From Micromonospora violae (lineage in GTDB: Bacteria; Actinomycetota; Actinomycetes; Mycobacteriales; Micromonosporaceae): 64,000 nucleotides of DNA. The notes under the pieces are model-generated. The model had not been told where the DNA came from, searched no databases, and was given only the letters and a program-made list of their open reading frames with translations. The position numbers were made by a program, and so were the translations under genes. Positions 18,380 to 51,753 of the stretch are shown here, in pieces (positions within the stretch are counted from its first letter, which is position 1; each line of letters opens with the position of its first letter). The stretch lies in the NCBI RefSeq assembly GCF_004217135.1, contig NZ_SHKK01000001.1:3968001-4032000 (forward strand), in the 5' to 3' direction.

Positions 18380-18806
<427 letters not shown>

Positions 18807-30096: not shown

Positions 30097-30768
30097 ATGT
30101 GGGGGAATGTCGGACCGCGCGTCGCCGAACTGTCGCCGCTGGAACGGGTCCGGCTGCGCCGGGTCGCCATCCGGTACGCCATCCACGGCTGGGAGGTGAC
30201 GCCGGGCGCCTGTCTGGCCCGCAGCCGCTTCGTCTGCGGCCGGGCCGGCTGTCCCACCGTGGGATGCCATCCCGCTCTGGAAAACTGGGAACTGGCCGCC
30301 AGCGCCGACCCGGCCCGGGTGGCGACCTGGTGGCGGAGCCGACCGCACGGGGTGCTGCTGCCCACCGGCCGGGCGTTCGACGTGCTGGAGGTGCCCGCCC
30401 ACCTCGGCCGGCACGTGCTCGACGCGGTCCAGATCCACCCGGCCGGCACCGGCGTACGCGGGCCGGTGCTGGTCACACCCACTGGGCGGTGGATGTTCCT
30501 GGTCCGCCCCGGCGACCCGCTCCGACCCGAGTTGGAGCACTGCTTCCACGTGGTCCGGCACGGGCCGGGCTCGTGGATCCCCGCACCGCCCACCCGGCTG
30601 CCGGAGGGCACCGTCCGGTGGGCGGTCGCACCGGAGCAGGCGCGCTGGCAGCTGCCGGATTCGTACCTCGTGCAGAACACGTTGATCGGGGCGCTGCGCG
30701 CCGCCGGGGTGAACCTCGCCCACGACCTGCTCCCCGGTCACCTGCCGCTGCCCCGGCGAGGGATGTGA
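30097..30768 (+). CDS. Bifunctional primase/polymerase N-terminal-like protein
   Basis: A 223-residue protein of the small actinobacterial family annotated as bifunctional DNA primase/polymerase. It has RRVAIRYAIHGWEVTPGACLA, a cysteine cluster (FVCGRAGCPTVGCHPAL), WWRSRPHGVLLPTGRAFDVLEVPAHLG, PVLVTPTGRWMFLV and GPGSWIPAPPTRLPEGTVRW. The FDVLEV strand fits the first metal-binding motif of archaeo-eukaryotic primases, but the later active-site motifs are weak, so polymerase activity is doubtful. ATG 30097 is preferred because GAGGAG lies nine bases upstream; ATG 30052 is in frame but has a poor site. Divergent from the XRE gene. Confidence 0.75.
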   Translation: MWGNVGPRVAELSPLERVRLRRVAIRYAIHGWEVTPGACLARSRFVCGRAGCPTVGCHPALENWELAASADPARVATWWRSRPHGVLLPTGRAFDVLEVPAHLGRHVLDAVQIHPAGTGVRGPVLVTPTGRWMFLVRPGDPLRPELEHCFHVVRHGPGSWIPAPPTRLPEGTVRWAVAPEQARWQLPDSYLVQNTLIGALRAAGVNLAHDLLPGHLPLPRRGM

Positions 30769-30873
30769 CACCGACCCGAGCAACGATTCGATCCGGTGCC
30801 GGACAGCGTCGCCGGGACGCCGGTCCTCGTTGACAGGGGAAGAGCGCGAACGCGCGCCACGAACGGGGGAACG

Positions 30874-31035
30874 ATGTCCAGCAACGACAGAGCGCCTCAC
30901 CCCGGCGGCACCGAACCGCCCCGGCGCAGCCACCCACGGCCCCGCTGGGCCGGCACCCGGCCGTCCGGCTCCCGCCCCGGCCGCCCCCGCCCCACCGGCT
31001 CCCGCCCGGCCGGCACCCACCGCCCGATTCGCTAG
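30874..31035 (+). CDS. Possible 53-residue Arg/Pro-rich peptide
   Basis: A short ORF with GGGGG six bases before ATG 30874. It encodes a highly basic, low-complexity peptide (MSSNDRAPHPGGTEPPRRSH, then Arg/Pro/Ser-rich to the end). No family. It overlaps the end of the convergent apbE gene by four bases. The composition may simply follow from GC-rich sequence, so it is uncertain whether it is translated. Confidence 0.3.
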   Translation: MSSNDRAPHPGGTEPPRRSHPRPRWAGTRPSGSRPGRPRPTGSRPAGTHRPIR

Positions 31036-31802
31036 TCGGCCAGGGGAAGGTCGACGGAGTGGTACTGCCGGGCGTTGTCGGTGATCACCGCGTGGGTGTG
31101 GTCGTCCAGGCGGGAGAGCCAGTTGAGACCGGGGGTGCCCATGGCCAGGGCGGCGGTGGCGTACGCGTCGGCCACCCCGAGGTCGGCACCGACCACGGTC
31201 ACCGAGCGCAACCCACTGGCCGGCGCGCCCCGACGGGGGTCCAACACGTGCCGACCCCGCTCGTACACGCCGGACGTGGCCACGGCCAGGTCGGTTCCGG
31301 TGAGCACCAGGCAGGCCGCCATCGCGTCCCACGGGTGTCTGATGCCGATCCGCCACGGCTCCCCCGACGGTGACAGGCCCCGCACCCGCACGTCGCCGCC
31401 GGCGTTCACACAGTGGTTGACGGCTCCGGCGGCGACGAGGCGGTCCGAGGCGACCTGGGCAGCCCAGCCTTTGACGAAGCCGGACGGGTCGAAACCACCG
31501 GTGGCGTACGCGTCGAAGAACCCGTCGGTGGCGCCCCACAGGTCGGCGCAGGTCTCCAAGACGAACCGCAGGTCCGTGGACGCTTCGGAGAGCAGCACCT
31601 CACCCCGGTCGAAGCGGCACACCTCGCTGTCCGGCCGGTAGGTGCTGAACCGGGCGTCCACCTCGTGCATCCAGGCGAAGACCTCGTCCGCCAATCCGCG
31701 CAGGGTCGCCGGTGGCAGATCGTCGGCGAGGTCCAGGGTGATGGCCGTACCCATGATCTGTTCGACCCGGCACAGCCCGGGTCGGGTCAGCGTGGCCCGC
31801 AC
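31032..31802 (-). CDS. apbE: FAD:protein FMN transferase, ApbE family
   Basis: A 256-residue ApbE. It attaches FMN by a phosphoester bond to Ser/Thr of FMN-binding domains using FAD. Seen: IMGTAITLDLADD near the start, TYRPDSEVCRFDRGE, DPSGFVKGWAAQVASDRLV (the conserved GxxKGW) and VNAGGDVRVRG, DLAVATSGVYERGRHVLDPR and VTVVGADLGVADAYATAAL (the metal-binding D-A-T region). GTG 31802 starts one base after the FMN-binding gene stop, so the two are coupled. No lipoprotein or clear signal peptide is present, so it may act before export or lack the usual export signal. The ORF extends further upstream only as a shadow of the next gene. Confidence 0.92.
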   Translation of the reverse strand: MRATLTRPGLCRVEQIMGTAITLDLADDLPPATLRGLADEVFAWMHEVDARFSTYRPDSEVCRFDRGEVLLSEASTDLRFVLETCADLWGATDGFFDAYATGGFDPSGFVKGWAAQVASDRLVAAGAVNHCVNAGGDVRVRGLSPSGEPWRIGIRHPWDAMAACLVLTGTDLAVATSGVYERGRHVLDPRRGAPASGLRSVTVVGADLGVADAYATAALAMGTPGLNWLSRLDDHTHAVITDNARQYHSVDLPLAD

Positions 31803-31803
31803 G

Positions 31804-32382
31804 TCAGAACGCCTGCTCGATGGCGGACCGCAGCGACTGCTTGTAGGAGTTGCTGGTCTCGGTGGCCCCGGAGACGGTGTTGAGGTTCGCGTTCTGCTTC
31901 TGCACCACCTCGCCGCCGCTGCCGTCGTAGCGGTCGCGGACGTCGCCGCTGTGGATGTCGGATTCACCCCCGCTGGGCAGCGACAGCGCGACGGCCTCGA
32001 CGATCCGGCTACCGGAGACGACGATCTGCACCTGCACGTACCCGTACTCGTTGTCGAAGCCCTTGCCGGTGACCCGGCGGGTGGTCGGCTGGGGTGCCTT
32101 GGTGGTGGTCCGGGGTGCGGCCTTCGTGGTGGTGCGGGTGCCGGACGGTCGGGCGGCGCTCCTGGTCGGCTTGGGTGACGTGGGCGCGTCGGCGGTCGCC
32201 GACGGCTCCGGCGCCTCGCCCGACGGGTCGGCGATCGGCTCGACCCCCTGCGGGGTGGGGTTGACCGGCTGGGCGGTCGGCAGGTTCTGGGCGACCGGGG
32301 TGGCGCCCGGCGAACCCTTGAACACCACCAGCGCGGTGGTGCTGGCGGCCAGGCCGGTGATCGCGAACAATGCGCGACGCAT
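31804..32382 (-). CDS. FMN-binding domain protein, substrate of ApbE
   Basis: A 192-residue exported electron carrier. It has a signal anchor (MRRALFAITGLAASTTALVVF), then a Thr/Pro/Lys-rich linker of about 75 residues (APTSPKPTRSAARPSGT). The FMN-binding domain occupies about 105-192 (GFDNEYGYVQVQIVVSGSRIVEAVALS) and ends with the flavinylation motif NTVSGATETSNSYKQSL, where the Thr of SGAT carries the FMN. The linker would span the cell wall or allow reach between partners. ATG 32382 has GGAAGGG upstream. It lies between the membrane flavocytochrome and apbE genes in the operon. Confidence 0.92.
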   Translation of the reverse strand: MRRALFAITGLAASTTALVVFKGSPGATPVAQNLPTAQPVNPTPQGVEPIADPSGEAPEPSATADAPTSPKPTRSAARPSGTRTTTKAAPRTTTKAPQPTTRRVTGKGFDNEYGYVQVQIVVSGSRIVEAVALSLPSGGESDIHSGDVRDRYDGSGGEVVQKQNANLNTVSGATETSNSYKQSLRSAIEQAF

Positions 32383-32395
32383 GGGGATGCCCTTC

Positions 32396-33811
32396 CTACA
32401 GCTCGAACGTGGCCAGGTGGATCTGCCGTCGGGGCACGCCGGCCCGGCGCAGCGCCCGCACCGACTGTTCCACCAACCCGGGCGGCCCGCACAGGTAGAC
32501 GTCGCGCCGGGCCACGTCGGGCACCAGTCGACGCAGCCCGTCCGGGCTCAACACCTGACGGGGGCCGGGGTCGTCGCGGGAGCCGATGACGTACCAGACG
32601 GAGGTGTCGCGCTCCTGGGCCAGCCAGTCCAACTCACGGCTGAGCAGCACCTCGGCCGGTGTGCGGGCCCGGTAGATCAGCGCGGCGCCCGGCGGCAGCT
32701 CCTCCAGCATGGCCCGGATCGGCGTGATGCCGCTGCCACCGGCGATCAGCAGCGCCCGTTCGCGGAGCCGGTGCGCGGCGGTGAAGGTGCCCGACGGGCC
32801 TGCGGCCCACACCCGGGTGCCCGGGTCCAGGTCACGCAGGTCGGCGGTGTGGGTGCCGACGACCTTGACGGTGATCCGCAACCAGCGGCCGTTGGCGGCG
32901 GCGGAGACGGAGAACGGGTGCGACTGCCACCAGCAGCCCCGGGTGAGGAACCGCCAACGGAAGTGCTGGCCGCCGAGCATCGCCAGCCGGCCGAGCCGCT
33001 CCCCGGTGAGGTAGATGGAGATGGTGTCGGTGCTCTCGGCGACCACGTCGGCGACCCGCAGCCGGTAGCGCAGGTTGAACGCCAGCGGCGCGATCACGCG
33101 GCCCCAGAGCAGGGCGGCGACCACCAGCAGGTAGAGCGCGATCCAGCCGGTGCGCACCGGGCCGGGCTTGTACAGCTGCGCGCCGTGGGTGAACTGGTGG
33201 CCGTAGCCGAGCAGCAGGACCAGATAGCTGGACAGGTGCAACAGGTGCCACAGCTCGTACGGCAACGCCCGGCGGATCGCCCGGATGCTGGTGAAACCGA
33301 CCAGCACCATGATGCCGGTGGCGACGAACGCCGACACCATGTCCTCGTAGTCGCCGAGCAACGTGCCGACCTCGGCGAGGATCGACTGGTTGCGCAGGTC
33401 GGCGTAGCCGAGGAGGATCAGCGACATGTGCGCCAGCACGGCGACCAGCAGGGTGGCGCCGATGTCCCGGTGCCAGCGGGCCGTGTGCTCGCCGCCGATC
33501 CACCGTTCCAGCACCGGCAGTCGGCTCATCATCAGCACCTGCACGAGCAGCAGGTAGCCGGCGATCAGGCCGGTGATGCGGCCGGCCGCGGTGACGGTGG
33601 CCGCGGTGGTCCGCAGCGATCCGGCGGGGGTGCCCAACCACCACGGCAGCACGCTGGCGAGCAGGCCGACCAGGAGCAGCACGCCCAGCAGCCGTCGGCC
33701 GCCGGGCCCGCGCCGGGCCGGGATCTGCGGTACGGGTGCAGCCGACCGGCCGCCGTGCCGGGACGAGGTCCCGGTACGACGGCCGGTGGCGTGGGTGTGC
33801 GAGTACGTCAC
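32396..33811 (-). CDS. Ferric-reductase-like membrane flavocytochrome
   Basis: A 471-residue protein fusing a ferric-reductase-type heme membrane domain to a ferredoxin-NADP reductase domain. Six to seven helices occupy about residues 35-235. Heme-ligand histidines are seen in RWHRDIGATLLVAVLAHMSL and LWHLLHLSSYLVLLLGYGHQFTHG. The FAD motif is WWQSHPFSVSAA, the NAD(P) motif is LIAGGSGITPIRAM, and the end is DVYLCGPPGLVEQSVRALRRAGVP. It moves electrons from cytoplasmic NAD(P)H across the membrane. GTG 33811 overlaps the DUF1501 stop by four bases. Its product likely feeds the FMN-binding protein encoded next. Confidence 0.92.
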   Translation of the reverse strand: MTYSHTHATGRRTGTSSRHGGRSAAPVPQIPARRGPGGRRLLGVLLLVGLLASVLPWWLGTPAGSLRTTAATVTAAGRITGLIAGYLLLVQVLMMSRLPVLERWIGGEHTARWHRDIGATLLVAVLAHMSLILLGYADLRNQSILAEVGTLLGDYEDMVSAFVATGIMVLVGFTSIRAIRRALPYELWHLLHLSSYLVLLLGYGHQFTHGAQLYKPGPVRTGWIALYLLVVAALLWGRVIAPLAFNLRYRLRVADVVAESTDTISIYLTGERLGRLAMLGGQHFRWRFLTRGCWWQSHPFSVSAAANGRWLRITVKVVGTHTADLRDLDPGTRVWAAGPSGTFTAAHRLRERALLIAGGSGITPIRAMLEELPPGAALIYRARTPAEVLLSRELDWLAQERDTSVWYVIGSRDDPGPRQVLSPDGLRRLVPDVARRDVYLCGPPGLVEQSVRALRRAGVPRRQIHLATFEL

Positions 33812-35202
33812 GCGTACAGCTTCATCGGGGCGTACTTCTGGCGGGGGAAGATCTTGTCGACCTCCGCGTTGGTGAGGCCGAACCGGCCCTGCGCCACCGC
33901 ACCGTAGACGTTGAACATGTTGTTGTACTCCGGCACGTCACCGGAGTCCAGCTTGTCCAGGCCGTTCCAGGTGCCGAGCAGCGAACCGGCCAGCTTCTTG
34001 CCGGAGAGCAGGGTGACCACGCCGCCGTGCCCGTGGTCGGTGCCGCCGGTGTTGGAGCGGACCCGGCGGCCGAACTCGCTGGACACCATGATCGTCACGT
34101 CGGCGGCCTGTGGGCCGAGGTCGGTGAAGAAGGCGGCCATCGCCTTGGCCAGCTCGTTCAGCCGGCGGTACAGCTGGCCGCCCTCACGGGTGCCCTGGTT
34201 CTCGTGGGTGTCGTAGCCGCCCATACCGACGGTGGCGACCCGCACGTTGGCCCCGCCCTTGATCAGCTGGGCGAGTTGTTGGAAGGCCCGCCCCACGCCC
34301 TCGTACGTGACGCCCTCGGCGGGCTGGTACGGCTTGGCGGCGAGCTTCTGGGCGGTGGCCAGCGCGCCCATGCCCTCCTGCACGGCCTCCTCGACCGGGT
34401 GGTTGATCCCGGTGAAGAGCCCCTTGATGGCCTTCTCGGTGGCAGCCCGGAACCGCTGGTCACCGTTGAGCCGCAGCGAACCGACGCTGTTCAGCGAGAG
34501 CGCGCCGTTGTTGCCGACCAGCGAGCGGGGCAGGGTGCTGCCGACGCCGACGCTGCGGAACGCCGTGCCCTTGCCCAGGTTGTCGACCAGACCGTCGAGC
34601 CAACCCCGGCCGCCGGTCTCGTTCGGCAGCCCGCCCAGGTTGCAGGCGTCCGCGGCCTGGAAGTGGCTGCGCGACAACCGCTCGTCGGAGACGGCCGGGA
34701 TGAAGCCCAGCTGGCCGGCCGTGAGCCACTTCTCCAACGGCTTGAACGCGCCGGTCAGCTTGAAACCGCGGCTCAGGGCCAGCGAGTCGTTGCCGAGCAG
34801 CAGGTCGGGCCGGGCCTTGCTGAGCACCGCGTCGTTGTCCGGAGCGACGAGGCTCAGCCCGTCCAGCCCGCCGTAGAGGAAGACGTGGATCAGGGTGCCG
34901 GTCTTGGTCGCCGCGAACGACGCCGAGGTGGTGACGAACTGGGCGGTGGCCAGCGCGGTGGCGGTGGCGGCGGCACCGGCGACGAAGGTCCGCCGGGTCA
35001 CGCCCCGACCGTCCTGCTGCGCCTCCTCCAGGTTCTCCAGGGTGCGGTACCTGTCGAACTCGGCCGCGTTCTCGGCGGCGACGATGTCCGCCTCGGCACG
35101 CAGCAGCGCCTCGGCCGGGTTGTCGGCCAGCCGCCGCACGTCGGGGCATTCGGGGTGCAGGGGGAAAGAGTTGTCCACAGTCTTCTCCATCGGGTGCCTC
35201 AC
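33808..35202 (-). CDS. DUF1501 protein, Tat-exported
   Basis: A 464-residue DUF1501 protein. A twin-arginine signal lies unusually far in, at about residues 68-90 (VTRRTFVAGAAATATALATA), after a helical, acidic cytoplasmic extension. The DUF1501 core follows: GTLIHVFLYGGLDGLSLVAPDND, LGFIPAVSDERLSRSHFQAAD, TVGMGGYDTHENQ and MVSSEFGRRVRSNTGGTDHGHGG, a pattern with conserved His/Asp residues related to the alkaline phosphatase/sulfatase fold. Function is unknown. GTG 35202 overlaps the DUF1800 stop by four bases, which supports this start over ATG 35190. It lies in one operon with the flavin electron-transfer genes. Confidence 0.9.
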   Translation of the reverse strand: MRHPMEKTVDNSFPLHPECPDVRRLADNPAEALLRAEADIVAAENAAEFDRYRTLENLEEAQQDGRGVTRRTFVAGAAATATALATAQFVTTSASFAATKTGTLIHVFLYGGLDGLSLVAPDNDAVLSKARPDLLLGNDSLALSRGFKLTGAFKPLEKWLTAGQLGFIPAVSDERLSRSHFQAADACNLGGLPNETGGRGWLDGLVDNLGKGTAFRSVGVGSTLPRSLVGNNGALSLNSVGSLRLNGDQRFRAATEKAIKGLFTGINHPVEEAVQEGMGALATAQKLAAKPYQPAEGVTYEGVGRAFQQLAQLIKGGANVRVATVGMGGYDTHENQGTREGGQLYRRLNELAKAMAAFFTDLGPQAADVTIMVSSEFGRRVRSNTGGTDHGHGGVVTLLSGKKLAGSLLGTWNGLDKLDSGDVPEYNNMFNVYGAVAQGRFGLTNAEVDKIFPRQKYAPMKLYA

Positions 35203-37295
35203 CGGAGGTGGTGCTGGGGGGAAGCGAGGATCGCCCGCGCGACGGCGGTGATGGCCCCGTTGAACGTGGCGTCGACCTTGGCGGTCGCCGCCACACCGGC
35301 CACGCCGAGGATGAGGTTCCTCTCCCGCGTGCTCAACTTCTGGCCCACCAGCCGCAGGGAGAGCGCGTCCACGTACGCCCCGGCCGTCGCCGGTGGCTTG
35401 GCCACCAGCTTCTCCGGCGGGGTGTAGGTGAAGGTGGTGCGGTAACCGGCGAGGATCTCACCCGCCTCGTTCCAGCCGTTGACCATGGTGCCGGCCGAGG
35501 TCCAGGCGACGTAGACGTCCGGGTAGCCGTCCGGGGTGGGCTGACCCATCGGGTAGTGGCCCAGCTCGCGCATCTTGTCGTGGATCTGGCGCAGCCCCCG
35601 GGCGTACGGGGTGCGCTTGCTGTCGCCGTTGTTGTGCTTCGGCGACGCGTCCGGTGAGACGCCCAGGGTGCGGTACGTGGCGACCAGGTACTCCATCGGC
35701 CGGCGCACCTTCTGGCCCACCCCGGCCCAGAACTCCGAGGAGCAGAAGAGCGTCATCAGGACCGGCTTGATCATGCCCTTGTTGGTCGTGTACGTCTTGG
35801 CCAGCCGGTCCACCAGGGACTTCGGCGGGGTGTCCGAGACGAACCGGGTGGCCAGGCTCTGCGCCACGTACTTCGCGGTCGACGGGTGCGTCGCGATGTA
35901 GGTGATGTACGCGTCGATCGCCGCTTCGGCCTTCTTCGGGTCGGCCGAGTTGTTCGCGTGGGTGAAGCCGAGGATCTTCACCTTGCCGACGTAGTGCTGC
36001 TCGGGGCGGAAGACGTACTTGCCGTCCTGGACGCCACGGCCGGTCTGGAGCATGGCGGCCTGCCGGACGTCCGGCTCCTTGTAGCCGCCGTCGACACCGA
36101 CCGAGTAGAGCTCAAGGTTCTCCCGGGCGAGGTTCTCGTTGATCGCGTCCTTGCGGGAGTCCTTCTGGTTCAGGTAGATCAGCAGCGCCGGGTGCTTGTT
36201 CGCGGCGACCAGCATCTCCGGGTAGCTGCCCAGGGCGTGCTTGCGCACGACGTCCTGGTCGAACGAGTTGCGGTACACCTCGCCGCCGTCGAAGTCCGCG
36301 GCGACGTGCAGGAAGTCGTTCCAGAAGTCGACCATCACCTCGAAGAGCTGGCGCTTGGACCAGATCTGCCGGGCGATGGTGGCGTCGACCATCTCCCGCT
36401 CCGGCTGGGCGCCCTGGTCGTTGAGCTTGTCCCGCTGGTCGCGCAGCTGCTGCGTGGAGAGCTTCTGGGTCGGCAGCTCGGCGAGCTTCAGCTCACCCTT
36501 GCTCGGCTCCAGCTTGTCCGGGTCCAGTTGGGCGCGGATCCAGGCGTCCATGCCCTCGCGCTTGATGTCGGCGAGCAGCGCGGGCGTCACGCCGAAGGTG
36601 GCGCGCCGGGCCAGGTGCAGGATCGGGTCCTTGGCCAGCACCGTCTTCACGGTCACCTTGGTCGCCGCCGCGGCCGCGGCCGGGCCGGAGTAGGTACGCC
36701 CGCCGGCCGGCGCGTTCTTCTTCAGCGCCGCACCGGCGCGGGAGCCCATGTAGCTCTCGTTCTGCTCGGTGTAGGTACGCACCGTGCTGGGCTGCTGGCC
36801 GCTGGGCCGCGCCGCGGTGCCGTCGGTCACCGTGCTGCCGGTCGCGTCGCCGGCGGCCGCCTCGCCGCCGAAGAGGCCCCGCAGCTGCGGGGTCATGGCG
36901 AGCGCCGCGCCACCGGCGACGACGGCGGCGGTGCCGCCGAGGGCCACCATCGCCTTCCGTCGACCAACCTTGCCACCGGGCTCGTCGTCATCGTCGAGGG
37001 CGGGCAGGCCGGTGCCGGCCGGGCGCGCCGGGGTCGGGCGGCCCAGGCCCTCCGGGCCGACCCACTGTGGACCGCGCGGCGCGGGACCGGGCTGCCCGGC
37101 GTGCGCGTACCCGTCGGCGTACTGCTCACGCGGGTCGCCCTGCGCGGGGTAGCCGCCCTGGTGGGGGTGGGGCGAGTCGTAGCCGTAGGGCGCGGGCGCG
37201 GTGGGGTCGCCGTAGCCGTCGGCGCTGTGGTGCTGGCGTCCGTCCCAACCGCGGTCGTCCCGCGGTCGACGTGGTGGCACATTCTGGTCGGCCAT
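35199..37295 (-). CDS. DUF1800 protein with long cytoplasmic N-terminus, Tat-exported
   Basis: A 698-residue DUF1800 protein and first gene of the operon. Residues 1-108 are Pro/Gly/Tyr-rich and disordered. A twin-arginine signal then follows (VGRRKAMVALGGTAAVVAGGAALA, RR at 112-113). The DUF1800 region starts near residue 225 (DPILHLARRATFGVTPALLADIKREGMDAWIRAQLDPD) and runs with MVDFWNDFLHVAADF, NLARENLELYSVGVDGGYKEPDV, GWNEAGEILAGYR and an end rich in short helices. DUF1800 and DUF1501 genes are paired in many bacteria; the function of the pair is not established. A long disordered tail before a Tat signal is unusual. Confidence 0.9.
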   Translation of the reverse strand: MADQNVPPRRPRDDRGWDGRQHHSADGYGDPTAPAPYGYDSPHPHQGGYPAQGDPREQYADGYAHAGQPGPAPRGPQWVGPEGLGRPTPARPAGTGLPALDDDDEPGGKVGRRKAMVALGGTAAVVAGGAALAMTPQLRGLFGGEAAAGDATGSTVTDGTAARPSGQQPSTVRTYTEQNESYMGSRAGAALKKNAPAGGRTYSGPAAAAAATKVTVKTVLAKDPILHLARRATFGVTPALLADIKREGMDAWIRAQLDPDKLEPSKGELKLAELPTQKLSTQQLRDQRDKLNDQGAQPEREMVDATIARQIWSKRQLFEVMVDFWNDFLHVAADFDGGEVYRNSFDQDVVRKHALGSYPEMLVAANKHPALLIYLNQKDSRKDAINENLARENLELYSVGVDGGYKEPDVRQAAMLQTGRGVQDGKYVFRPEQHYVGKVKILGFTHANNSADPKKAEAAIDAYITYIATHPSTAKYVAQSLATRFVSDTPPKSLVDRLAKTYTTNKGMIKPVLMTLFCSSEFWAGVGQKVRRPMEYLVATYRTLGVSPDASPKHNNGDSKRTPYARGLRQIHDKMRELGHYPMGQPTPDGYPDVYVAWTSAGTMVNGWNEAGEILAGYRTTFTYTPPEKLVAKPPATAGAYVDALSLRLVGQKLSTRERNLILGVAGVAATAKVDATFNGAITAVARAILASPQHHLR

Positions 37296-37725
37296 GTACC
37301 AATCCCGATTTCTGCTGAGCGCCGAGAGCTGCTACCGGCAGGTGCGGCAGGTGCGGCGACTGTTGCCTGAGGGGGTTGCTACGGCAAAGTAACTAAGGCC
37401 TCAGGGCCCTTCAAGGCAGCCGGATCACCCCCGTGAGGGCACTTAAGACACCGCTCAGTACGACCTCGGCGGCGGGCCGCAGGGCGTAGCCGCCCGCAGA
37501 CCTTCCCAGCAGGGGGTACGTGCGGCAGCCGCGCACGGATCGGACCTTGGCGCCGTAGCCGACACTTTCGGCGTCGTTCACCACCAAAGACAAACTTAAG
37601 GCCCGGGTAAGCCGGACCTGAGACGCGCTCGCGTGGAGGAAAAGTAGCAGCACCGGGCGAGCGTGAGCCGCCACCGCAGCGGGTATGCCGCCGAACCGCT
37701 GGACGCGTGAGGGGAAGGCAGCGCC
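37296..37725. promoter_or_regulatory. Divergent intergenic region, 430 bases
   Basis: Between the divergent DUF1800 operon and the DUF3040 gene no coding region is supported. CACTTAAG (37439-37446) and AAACTTAAGG (37592-37601) resemble each other. Small stems such as GGCGGCGGGCCGC near 37468 occur. It should hold the promoters of the five-gene operon (minus strand) and of the DUF3040 gene. Confidence 0.4.
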
Positions 37726-37983
37726 ATGCTCAGCAAAGAGGATCAGCGCAGATTCGACCAGATCACCCGTCAGCTCCGGGAAAGTGACCCGGCCTTCTTC
37801 AAGAAGCTGGACCACCGGGTCCGGGCCCGCAGGGGCCGCTACCTGATGTTGTTGACCATCGTGCTGTGGGCGTCGCTGCCGGCGATAGCCGTGTTCGCCG
37901 GTCGACTGACCGGCGCGATCTGCGCGGTGGTCCTGGTGGCCAACGCCGCCGTCATGTGGCGGTTCCGCCGCCGCTGGACGTGA
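37726..37983 (+). CDS. DUF3040 small membrane protein
   Basis: An 85-residue DUF3040 protein: a charged N-terminal cytoplasmic part (MLSKEDQRRFDQITRQLRES, DPAFFKKL) followed by two membrane helices (YLMLLTIVLWASLPAIAVFAG and TGAICAVVLVANAAVMW) and a basic end. The family is widespread in actinobacteria and of unknown function. ATG 37726 is preceded by GAGGGGAAGG. It is convergent with the SWIM gene. Confidence 0.88.
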   Translation: MLSKEDQRRFDQITRQLRESDPAFFKKLDHRVRARRGRYLMLLTIVLWASLPAIAVFAGRLTGAICAVVLVANAAVMWRFRRRWT

Positions 37984-38008
37984 CCGCTCAACCGCTCGAC
38001 GGCACCGC

Positions 38009-51606: not shown

Positions 51607-51681
51607 CTGCGTCGACCCACTCGATACGTCGCCAACGCCAGACGGCGCCTCGGCACAGGTGATGTCGGTGGTGGTGAAGGG

Positions 51682-51753
51682 TGGGCGCGGCAGGTTTCGA
51701 ACCTGCGACCCCTCGCTTGTAAGGCGAGTGCTCTCCCACTGAGCTACGCGCCC
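51682..51753 (-). tRNA. tRNA-Val (UAC anticodon)
   Basis: The minus strand gives a full cloverleaf: acceptor GGGCGCG (51753-51747) pairs with CGCGCCC, D-arm GCTCAGTGGGAGAGC, anticodon stem CTCGC/GCGAG with loop CTTACAA (anticodon TAC), and T-arm with GGTTCGAAACC. CCA is not encoded. It reads GUA valine codons and, with U34, probably others. It lies between a TetR gene and the peroxiredoxin gene. Confidence 0.95.

Follow-up and report, generated by a model that had tools for sequence, protein, structure and literature searches.

Why should the genes of a flavin-dependent electron-transfer system follow, in one tightly spaced run, the genes of DUF1800 and DUF1501, two widespread, paired and exported families of uncharacterised function? 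The question is raised by a locus in a stretch of 64,000 nucleotides (the window) from Micromonospora violae contig NZ_SHKK01000001.1, positions 3,968,001 to 4,032,000. The host genome, a single contig of 7.14 Mb, belongs to Micromonospora as judged by its relatives, and the window copy of DUF1501 is 97% identical to those of M. tarensis, M. saelicesensis and M. noduli. Behind the pair lies a three-gene cassette encoding a flavocytochrome, a protein with a flavin mononucleotide (FMN)-binding domain (FMN_bind) and the flavin transferase ApbE. We conclude that the link of this redox cassette to the DUF pair is a real, conserved and lineage-limited operon. The reading that we favour, with a probability of roughly 0.55, is that the operon holds two separable envelope modules read from one promoter, which would be co-expressed and would not form one machine.

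Organization of the operon

Five open reading frames (ORFs) lie on the minus strand within 37295-31032, and the product of each scored above its Pfam cut-off:

35199..37295, minus strand: DUF1800 protein, 698 amino acids; PF08811, 379 bits against a cut-off of 26.1, domain at residues 227-695
33808..35202, minus strand: DUF1501 protein, 464 amino acids; PF07394, 75.5 bits against a cut-off of 27
32396..33811, minus strand: ferric-reductase/NOX-like flavocytochrome, 471 amino acids; Ferric_reduct 54 bits, NAD_binding_1 38.2 bits, FAD_binding_8 25.6 bits
31804..32382, minus strand: FMN_bind protein, 192 amino acids; 22.7 bits, barely above the Pfam cut-off of 22
31032..31802, minus strand: ApbE flavin transferase, 256 amino acids, with the start at 31802 inferred from orthologs (the longest listed ORF has 486 amino acids); Pfam 152.5 bits, PDB 6nxi E 3.8e-21

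These coordinates and Pfam matches agree with the gene order and with all four junctions given by an earlier, sequence-only reading of the window, i.e. GTGA overlaps of 4 nt at 35199-35202 (DUF1800/DUF1501) and 33808-33811 (DUF1501/flavocytochrome), a gap of 13 nt (32383-32395) between flavocytochrome and FMN_bind, and a gap of 1 nt (31803) between FMN_bind and ApbE. A single co-oriented, tightly spaced operon is supported. The junction between the two halves recurs in relatives: at 27 of the 34 loci with both genes, including that of the distant genome G443, an in-frame GTG of the flavocytochrome overlaps the DUF1501 stop codon as GTGA, although the script used for this count chose the overlapping GTG wherever one was present and many of the 34 loci are close kin. 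At the remaining seven loci the script-chosen starts gave junctions of -8 (four loci), +1, +52 and +118.

Distribution of the linkage

The linkage was mapped in 150 Micromonosporaceae genomes, drawn evenly. The orthologous DUF1501 clade (full gene, at least 515 bits) was present in 39 of them, and one further genome, G565, adds a remnant. Type-1 flavocytochromes were taken, among the matches listed, as those above 400 bits plus one fragment in G430; they lay within 1 kb of DUF1501 in 26 of the 39 genomes, and ApbE within 4 kb in 23 (G565 comes in addition to both counts). The linked genomes without an adjacent ApbE were G499, whose match is on a different contig, and the pair G430 and G466, where none was seen nearby. 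The sequence-only reading had made its case depend on linkage in related genomes, and within the Micromonosporaceae the linkage is indeed conserved. The 13 unlinked DUF1501 genes fall into two groups: genus g193 (Dactylosporangium) accounts for seven genomes whose cassette is at another place (in G491 some 0.9 Mb distant), and genus g180 (Phytohabitans) for six that have the DUF pair and no cassette of the type-1 kind.

Counted from the side of the cassette, and again among the matches listed, the type-1 flavocytochrome occurred in 79 of the 150 genomes, with ApbE within 1.5 kb of 74 of the 83 matches. The cassette was unlinked in 52 of these 79 carriers, 45 of which lack a clade DUF1501 and seven of which have one elsewhere. 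Because so many carriers do without the clade DUF1501 while ApbE adjoins nearly all of the flavocytochromes, the cassette can be regarded as an independent unit.

Outside the clade the pair was found without the cassette. In 79 named loci searched with tblastn, a flavocytochrome was present at 22 of the 25 belonging to the orthologous clade and cassette genes at none of the 54 others, which span Actinobacteria, Chloroflexi, Acidobacteria and Bacteroidetes. A broader search of 94 DUF1501 loci outside the clade (hmmsearch, three profiles, six frames, 1.19 Mb, E up to 1e-3) gave no cassette gene at any locus and was positive at both control loci; it reached about 8 kb to each side or to the contig end, short contigs testing less, and 40 of the 54 named loci included in it extend at least 3 kb downstream of DUF1501. 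DUF1800 stood upstream of DUF1501 on the same strand at 75 of the 79 named loci, the other four beginning 9-260 bases before the DUF1501 match; at L242 the two genes are 2.6 kb apart.

Two descriptions of the linkage were rejected, i.e. that it is a peculiarity of one genome, since it recurs across related genomes, and that it is a general feature of DUF1800-DUF1501 pairs, since none of the 94 outside loci has the cassette in the DNA covered.

No third partner shared by the pairs elsewhere was found downstream of them: no family, among the best 25 of 131, occurred in more than two of 88 ORFs, which represent 32 of the 33 loci selected by hand among the 54 (a length limit removed some of an original 92, and the two of L249 were omitted). 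Likewise, 16 standalone cassettes showed no constant neighbour; of 62 ORFs examined around them, at most 5 had a GNAT domain and 4 had response-regulator domains. The ORFs were selected for their length and codon composition, and a few of these choices must be wrong. The survey shows both where the coupling arose and where it is absent, and relatives that keep just one of the halves can serve as natural controls.

Elsewhere in the same genome, at about 6.84 Mb (L139), lies another DUF1800-DUF1501 pair, which is distantly related (about 30% identity) and has no cassette gene in the 14 kb fetched.

The syntenic site and its history

The neighbours of the operon are, on one side, a helix-turn-helix gene followed by a Prim-Pol gene and, on the other, an SNF2-type gene. 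In Micromonospora and several other genera, including Asanoa, all five genes stand beside all three neighbours or beside the helix-turn-helix and Prim-Pol genes; the contig of G466 ends too early for a judgement. Five g180 loci (L099-L103) have DUF1501 without the cassette beside the helix-turn-helix gene, and four of the five also beside Prim-Pol; the SNF2 side was outside their reach, and L100 begins inside the region and does not cover the place of DUF1800. In G436 and G448 the cassette lies between the flanks and there is no DUF gene. In G565 there is no match to DUF1800 and DUF1501 is reduced to residues 356-464, but an upstream element, the GTGA junction and a full-length flavocytochrome match are retained.

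Trees were built from 36 hand-picked rows each. In the flavocytochrome tree 17 standalone proteins were separate from 16 linked and 3 same-site proteins (support 81/43, 83% of bootstrap trees). In the DUF1501 tree, where support was uneven and long branches were flagged by the program, the pair-only genome G036 and the Dactylosporangium branch fell outside the linked rows. The simplest history is one joining followed by several dissociations, and the cassette probably joined behind DUF1501 once, in an ancestor within the Micromonosporaceae. The ratio of non-synonymous to synonymous substitution rates was 0.16-0.49 for DUF1800 and DUF1501 (five pairs) and 0.47-0.99 for FMN_bind.

At one linked locus (L092, in the Plantactinospora genome G430) DUF1800, the flavocytochrome and the helix-turn-helix gene are in broken frames, possibly through sequence errors, and no ApbE is nearby; this genome has a second cassette elsewhere.

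The upstream region

Two elements 5' of the operon were marked out by conservation:

37441..37447, minus strand: CTTAAGT box, in 20 of the 20 upstream regions chosen for alignment
37386..37414, minus strand: promoter-like TTGAAG - 17 nt - TACTTT, a reading based on conservation; it scored under the scanner threshold and overlaps a terminator-like hit

The 20 aligned regions, hand-picked from the fetched loci, have the CTTAAGT box followed by CTTG and a TA-type element 5' of DUF1800. The combination of CTTAAGT and a subsequent CTTGA was expected 0.00 times in shuffles of the window and occurs at three sites in the genome, against one for the reversed control pattern. Similar elements precede the cassette-only locus of G448 and, among loci with the pair alone, those of g180, Dactylosporangium and G036; in G565 the box reads CTCAAGT. 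The CTTAAG box alone is not specific, because it also occurs within 700 bases of three of eight standalone flavocytochromes and of a single pair of the outer clade (L108), and was not found within 700 bases 5' of G436 or upstream of five other pairs. Another CTTAAGTTT box is situated some 305 bases 5' of the start codon, upstream of DUF1800 on the minus strand.

A scan of 30500-38000 found no terminator-like site inside the operon. Both terminator-like matches were 5' of it (37395-37410 and 37600-37613), in a number equal to the shuffled expectation of 2.0. Between 33811 and 35199, the interval that the sequence-only reading had singled out for such signals, the scan showed neither a separate promoter nor a terminator. 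No known RNA element was found upstream of the operon, save one chance-level match below the gathering score.

The redox cassette and the site of flavinylation

The flavocytochrome aligned over residues 81-455, i.e. its membrane, flavin adenine dinucleotide (FAD) and NAD(P)H parts, with PDB 8qt6, an FAD-binding FR-type protein that we take to be the bacterial NADPH oxidase SpNOX (E 4.9e-10; one match, a flavohemoprotein, ranked higher). At the motif level, histidine pairs spaced as HX13H and HX12H are present in 51 and 47 of 52 orthologs, which predicts sites for two hemes. The domain content supports a path from NAD(P)H over FAD and heme to FMN.

The FMN_bind protein, the only one above the cut-off in its genome, starts with MRR, a hydrophobic segment and K22, and has a long Pro/Thr/Lys-rich linker and one FMN domain, whose sole solved match is 8p2a (E 2.9e-11). 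The NTVSGAT motif ascribed to it was located at residues 168-174, and SGAT or SGAS is present in 41 of 48 orthologs. In several Micromonospora (L107, L192, L199, L200 and L202) SQAT or STAT replaces SGAT, and ApbE is still adjacent. All 38 orthologs that aligned from residue 1 have RR at positions 2-3, compared with a share of 61% for arginine among the other basic residues of these proteins.

ApbE, which resembles solved FAD:protein FMN transferases, differs from FMN_bind at the N-terminus. None of its 47 orthologs, linked or standalone, has a hydrophobic N-terminus, i.e. an exported or lipoprotein form was not found among them, and the hydropathy near the N-terminus (best 18 residues) was at most 1.58 in all 47, compared with at least 1.81 in the 38 FMN_bind proteins. 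The genome has two ApbE genes, and the listed frame of the second copy also starts without a hydrophobic stretch. An exported or lipoprotein ApbE is usual, but not universal, as the accessible part of a report on a cytosolic ApbE of Klebsiella indicates (PMC12052999), and because this cytosolic enzyme exists we did not use the lack of an exported form to deny membership of the ApbE family. An ApbE without a hydrophobic N-terminus and an FMN_bind protein with an RR start together suggest that flavinylation occurs inside the cell before export. On these features, flavinylation in the cytosol followed by export of FMN_bind would be the simplest reading, and FMN_bind may leave by twin-arginine translocation (Tat) or stay as a retained anchor. 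A less usual route is thereby indicated, in which the flavin would be attached intracellularly and export would come afterwards.

The alternative is that FMN_bind is exported unfolded by the general secretory (Sec) pathway and flavinylated outside or not at all. Its hydrophobic segment might act as a Sec signal or as an anchor, and the SQAT, STAT and GGAT variants of its motif would fit a protein that is not always flavinylated; we nevertheless consider this route unlikely, given the non-hydrophobic N-termini of the ApbE proteins, including the second copy in the genome, and the constancy of RR in FMN_bind against the lower general use of arginine.

The DUF1800-DUF1501 pair

Both DUF proteins had been described as Tat-exported. 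For DUF1501 this is well supported: a TRRxF motif of the Tat type occupies residues 69-73, and in an alignment of 46 sequences from different phyla R70 and R71 are each kept in 90% or more, although the TAT_signal profile stayed below its cut-off (10.6 against 22.7). For DUF1800, which has a Pro/Gly-rich N-terminus and an RR at residues 112-113 with a hydrophobic segment, Tat export is plausible and no more.

In the same 46 DUF1501 sequences D114, S179, H180, D331, H333, E376, D389, H390 and H392 are invariant; these residues look like a metal site, and DUF1501 is probably hydrolytic. DUF1501 may belong to the alkaline-phosphatase superfamily, a placement that profile comparison did not confirm: for kinship with sulfatases and phosphodiesterases, hhalign gave E 0.44 and 0.19, and the control pair was itself weak (14.5%). 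N386, E387, N388, R391, E392, E395, L396 and H434 are invariant in 49 DUF1800 sequences. Neither protein has a CXXC or flavinylation motif, and no cysteine column is conserved above 31% in one or 33% in the other of these two alignments. By sequence, neither has a convincing solved relative.

How the two halves relate

In the two-module interpretation, the first module would be an MsrQ-like/NOX-like electron exporter, in which electrons pass from NAD(P)H to FAD and then cross the membrane by way of two b hemes; at its outer face, covalently flavinylated FMN_bind would hand them to a small extracellular acceptor, e.g. ferric iron, quinone or oxygen. ApbE, which has no recognisable signal, would probably attach FMN intracellularly, and FMN_bind would then be exported folded, most likely by Tat, or be held by its RR-headed N-terminal segment. 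The second module would be the ancient DUF1800-DUF1501 pair, with a Tat-exported DUF1501 carrying a metal-site-like set of Asp and His residues. Since the joining, the cassette would have used the promoter of the DUF pair and GTGA translational coupling. In favour of this interpretation are the domain content and the solved relatives, the separation of standalone from linked flavocytochromes in the tree, the occurrence of each module alone at one syntenic site and the retention of the junction in G565, where the pair is largely gone.

Several observations weigh against this interpretation. The recurrent GTGA coupling and the survival of all five genes together in several genera suggest more than co-expression, and G443 has the five genes together without the usual flanks. 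The g180 genomes have single-gene relatives of the cassette that might substitute for it (flavocytochrome E 1e-49 to 1e-91, with about 40% identity in G459; ApbE E 1e-34 to 1e-39). Pair-only g180 nests among the linked DUF1501 rows, only weakly (86/31, 82/91), so loss of the cassette in Phytohabitans is not firmly separated from never having had it. The sigma-70 scan of 30500-38000 gave no promoter-like site. As regards FMN_bind, 10 of the 48 matches did not align at the N-terminus and the 38 with RR were thus selected for similarity; the invariant T15, L18 and K22 of the segment are as compatible with a retained helix as with a Tat signal, and the RR could be an ordinary positive-inside anchor. 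Moreover, seven of the 48 deviate at the flavinylation motif (four SQAT, one STAT, one GGAT and one cut off), and their flavinylation is uncertain because [S]GA[ST] was not seen.

A second explanation is pure hitch-hiking, i.e. the cassette landed behind a suitable promoter and the neighbourhood is without functional meaning. One joining with several dissociations, which fits the trees, and the lack of a third partner shared by the pairs elsewhere, among the families listed, speak for it. We regard it as doubtful all the same, since the GTGA junction has been retained across several genera and G443 has kept the five genes together away from their usual surroundings.

The third explanation is that there is one machine, in which electrons from FMN flow to an exported, redox-active DUF1501/DUF1800 complex. 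The conserved gene order with its GTGA coupling, the linkage of two thirds (26/39) of the orthologous DUF1501 genes and the Tat motif of DUF1501 all argue for it. However, the pair lacks the cassette in the DNA covered at 94 of 94 loci outside the clade, six g180 genomes have the pair and no type-1 cassette (though they do have the weaker relatives), G436 and G448 keep the cassette where the pair is missing, and the DUF proteins have neither CXXC, nor a well conserved cysteine, nor a flavinylation motif. We consider this explanation improbable. The sequence-only reading had tentatively proposed such a flow of electrons into DUF1501/DUF1800; the operon and the path as far as FMN are supported, while the role of the pair as acceptor finds little support, because each half survives alone (13 of 39 genomes inside the clade also lack the linked cassette) and no redox motif is apparent in either of the DUF proteins. 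Overall, the evidence leans against electron flow into the DUF pair. Least probable is the narrower proposal of one envelope machine in part of the Micromonosporaceae, in which an FMN_bind protein flavinylated in the cytosol by an ApbE without a signal, and exported in folded form by Tat, would feed electrons from NAD(P)H to a Tat-exported DUF1501-DUF1800 metal-enzyme complex; if true, it would provide DUF1501 and DUF1800 with a partner and a chemistry.

Other features of the window

18383-18799, minus strand: RNase P RNA, class A
51680-51753, minus strand: tRNA-Val, anticodon tac

Comparison with known systems

By its gene content the three-gene cassette is a member of a described class, the MsrQ-like flavinylation systems: here and in the relatives, a PF01794 gene is clustered with ApbE or FMN_bind. 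As far as the available text of Meheust et al. (2021, PMC8238504) goes, these systems are conserved widely among Actinobacteria, with 1797 clusters in 1468 genomes, and some have been proposed as iron reductases. The present locus has the same parts, but here DUF1800 and DUF1501, a pair not found in the text of that article, precede them, and ApbE has no hydrophobic N-terminus. The names and Pfam accessions of DUF1501 and DUF1800 were not found in the main text of the flavinylation literature searched, nor ApbE together with Micromonospora in the literature searched. The texts searched gave no description of the five-gene unit, which could sit in supplementary tables, e.g. of PMC8238504.

The flavocytochrome is like 8qt6 over the membrane, FAD and NAD(P)H parts. 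The three-FMN protein of Streptomyces azureus (PDB 8P2A), as presented in the accessible part of PMC10339131, has three FMN domains, whereas FMN_bind has one, with a linker. DUF1800-DUF1501 operons with bacterial chitin synthases occur in several Proteobacteria, according to the available text of PMC5122149, which also notes a twin-arginine motif on DUF1501. The same two genes stand together in both settings; their partner is a chitin synthase there and a redox cassette here.

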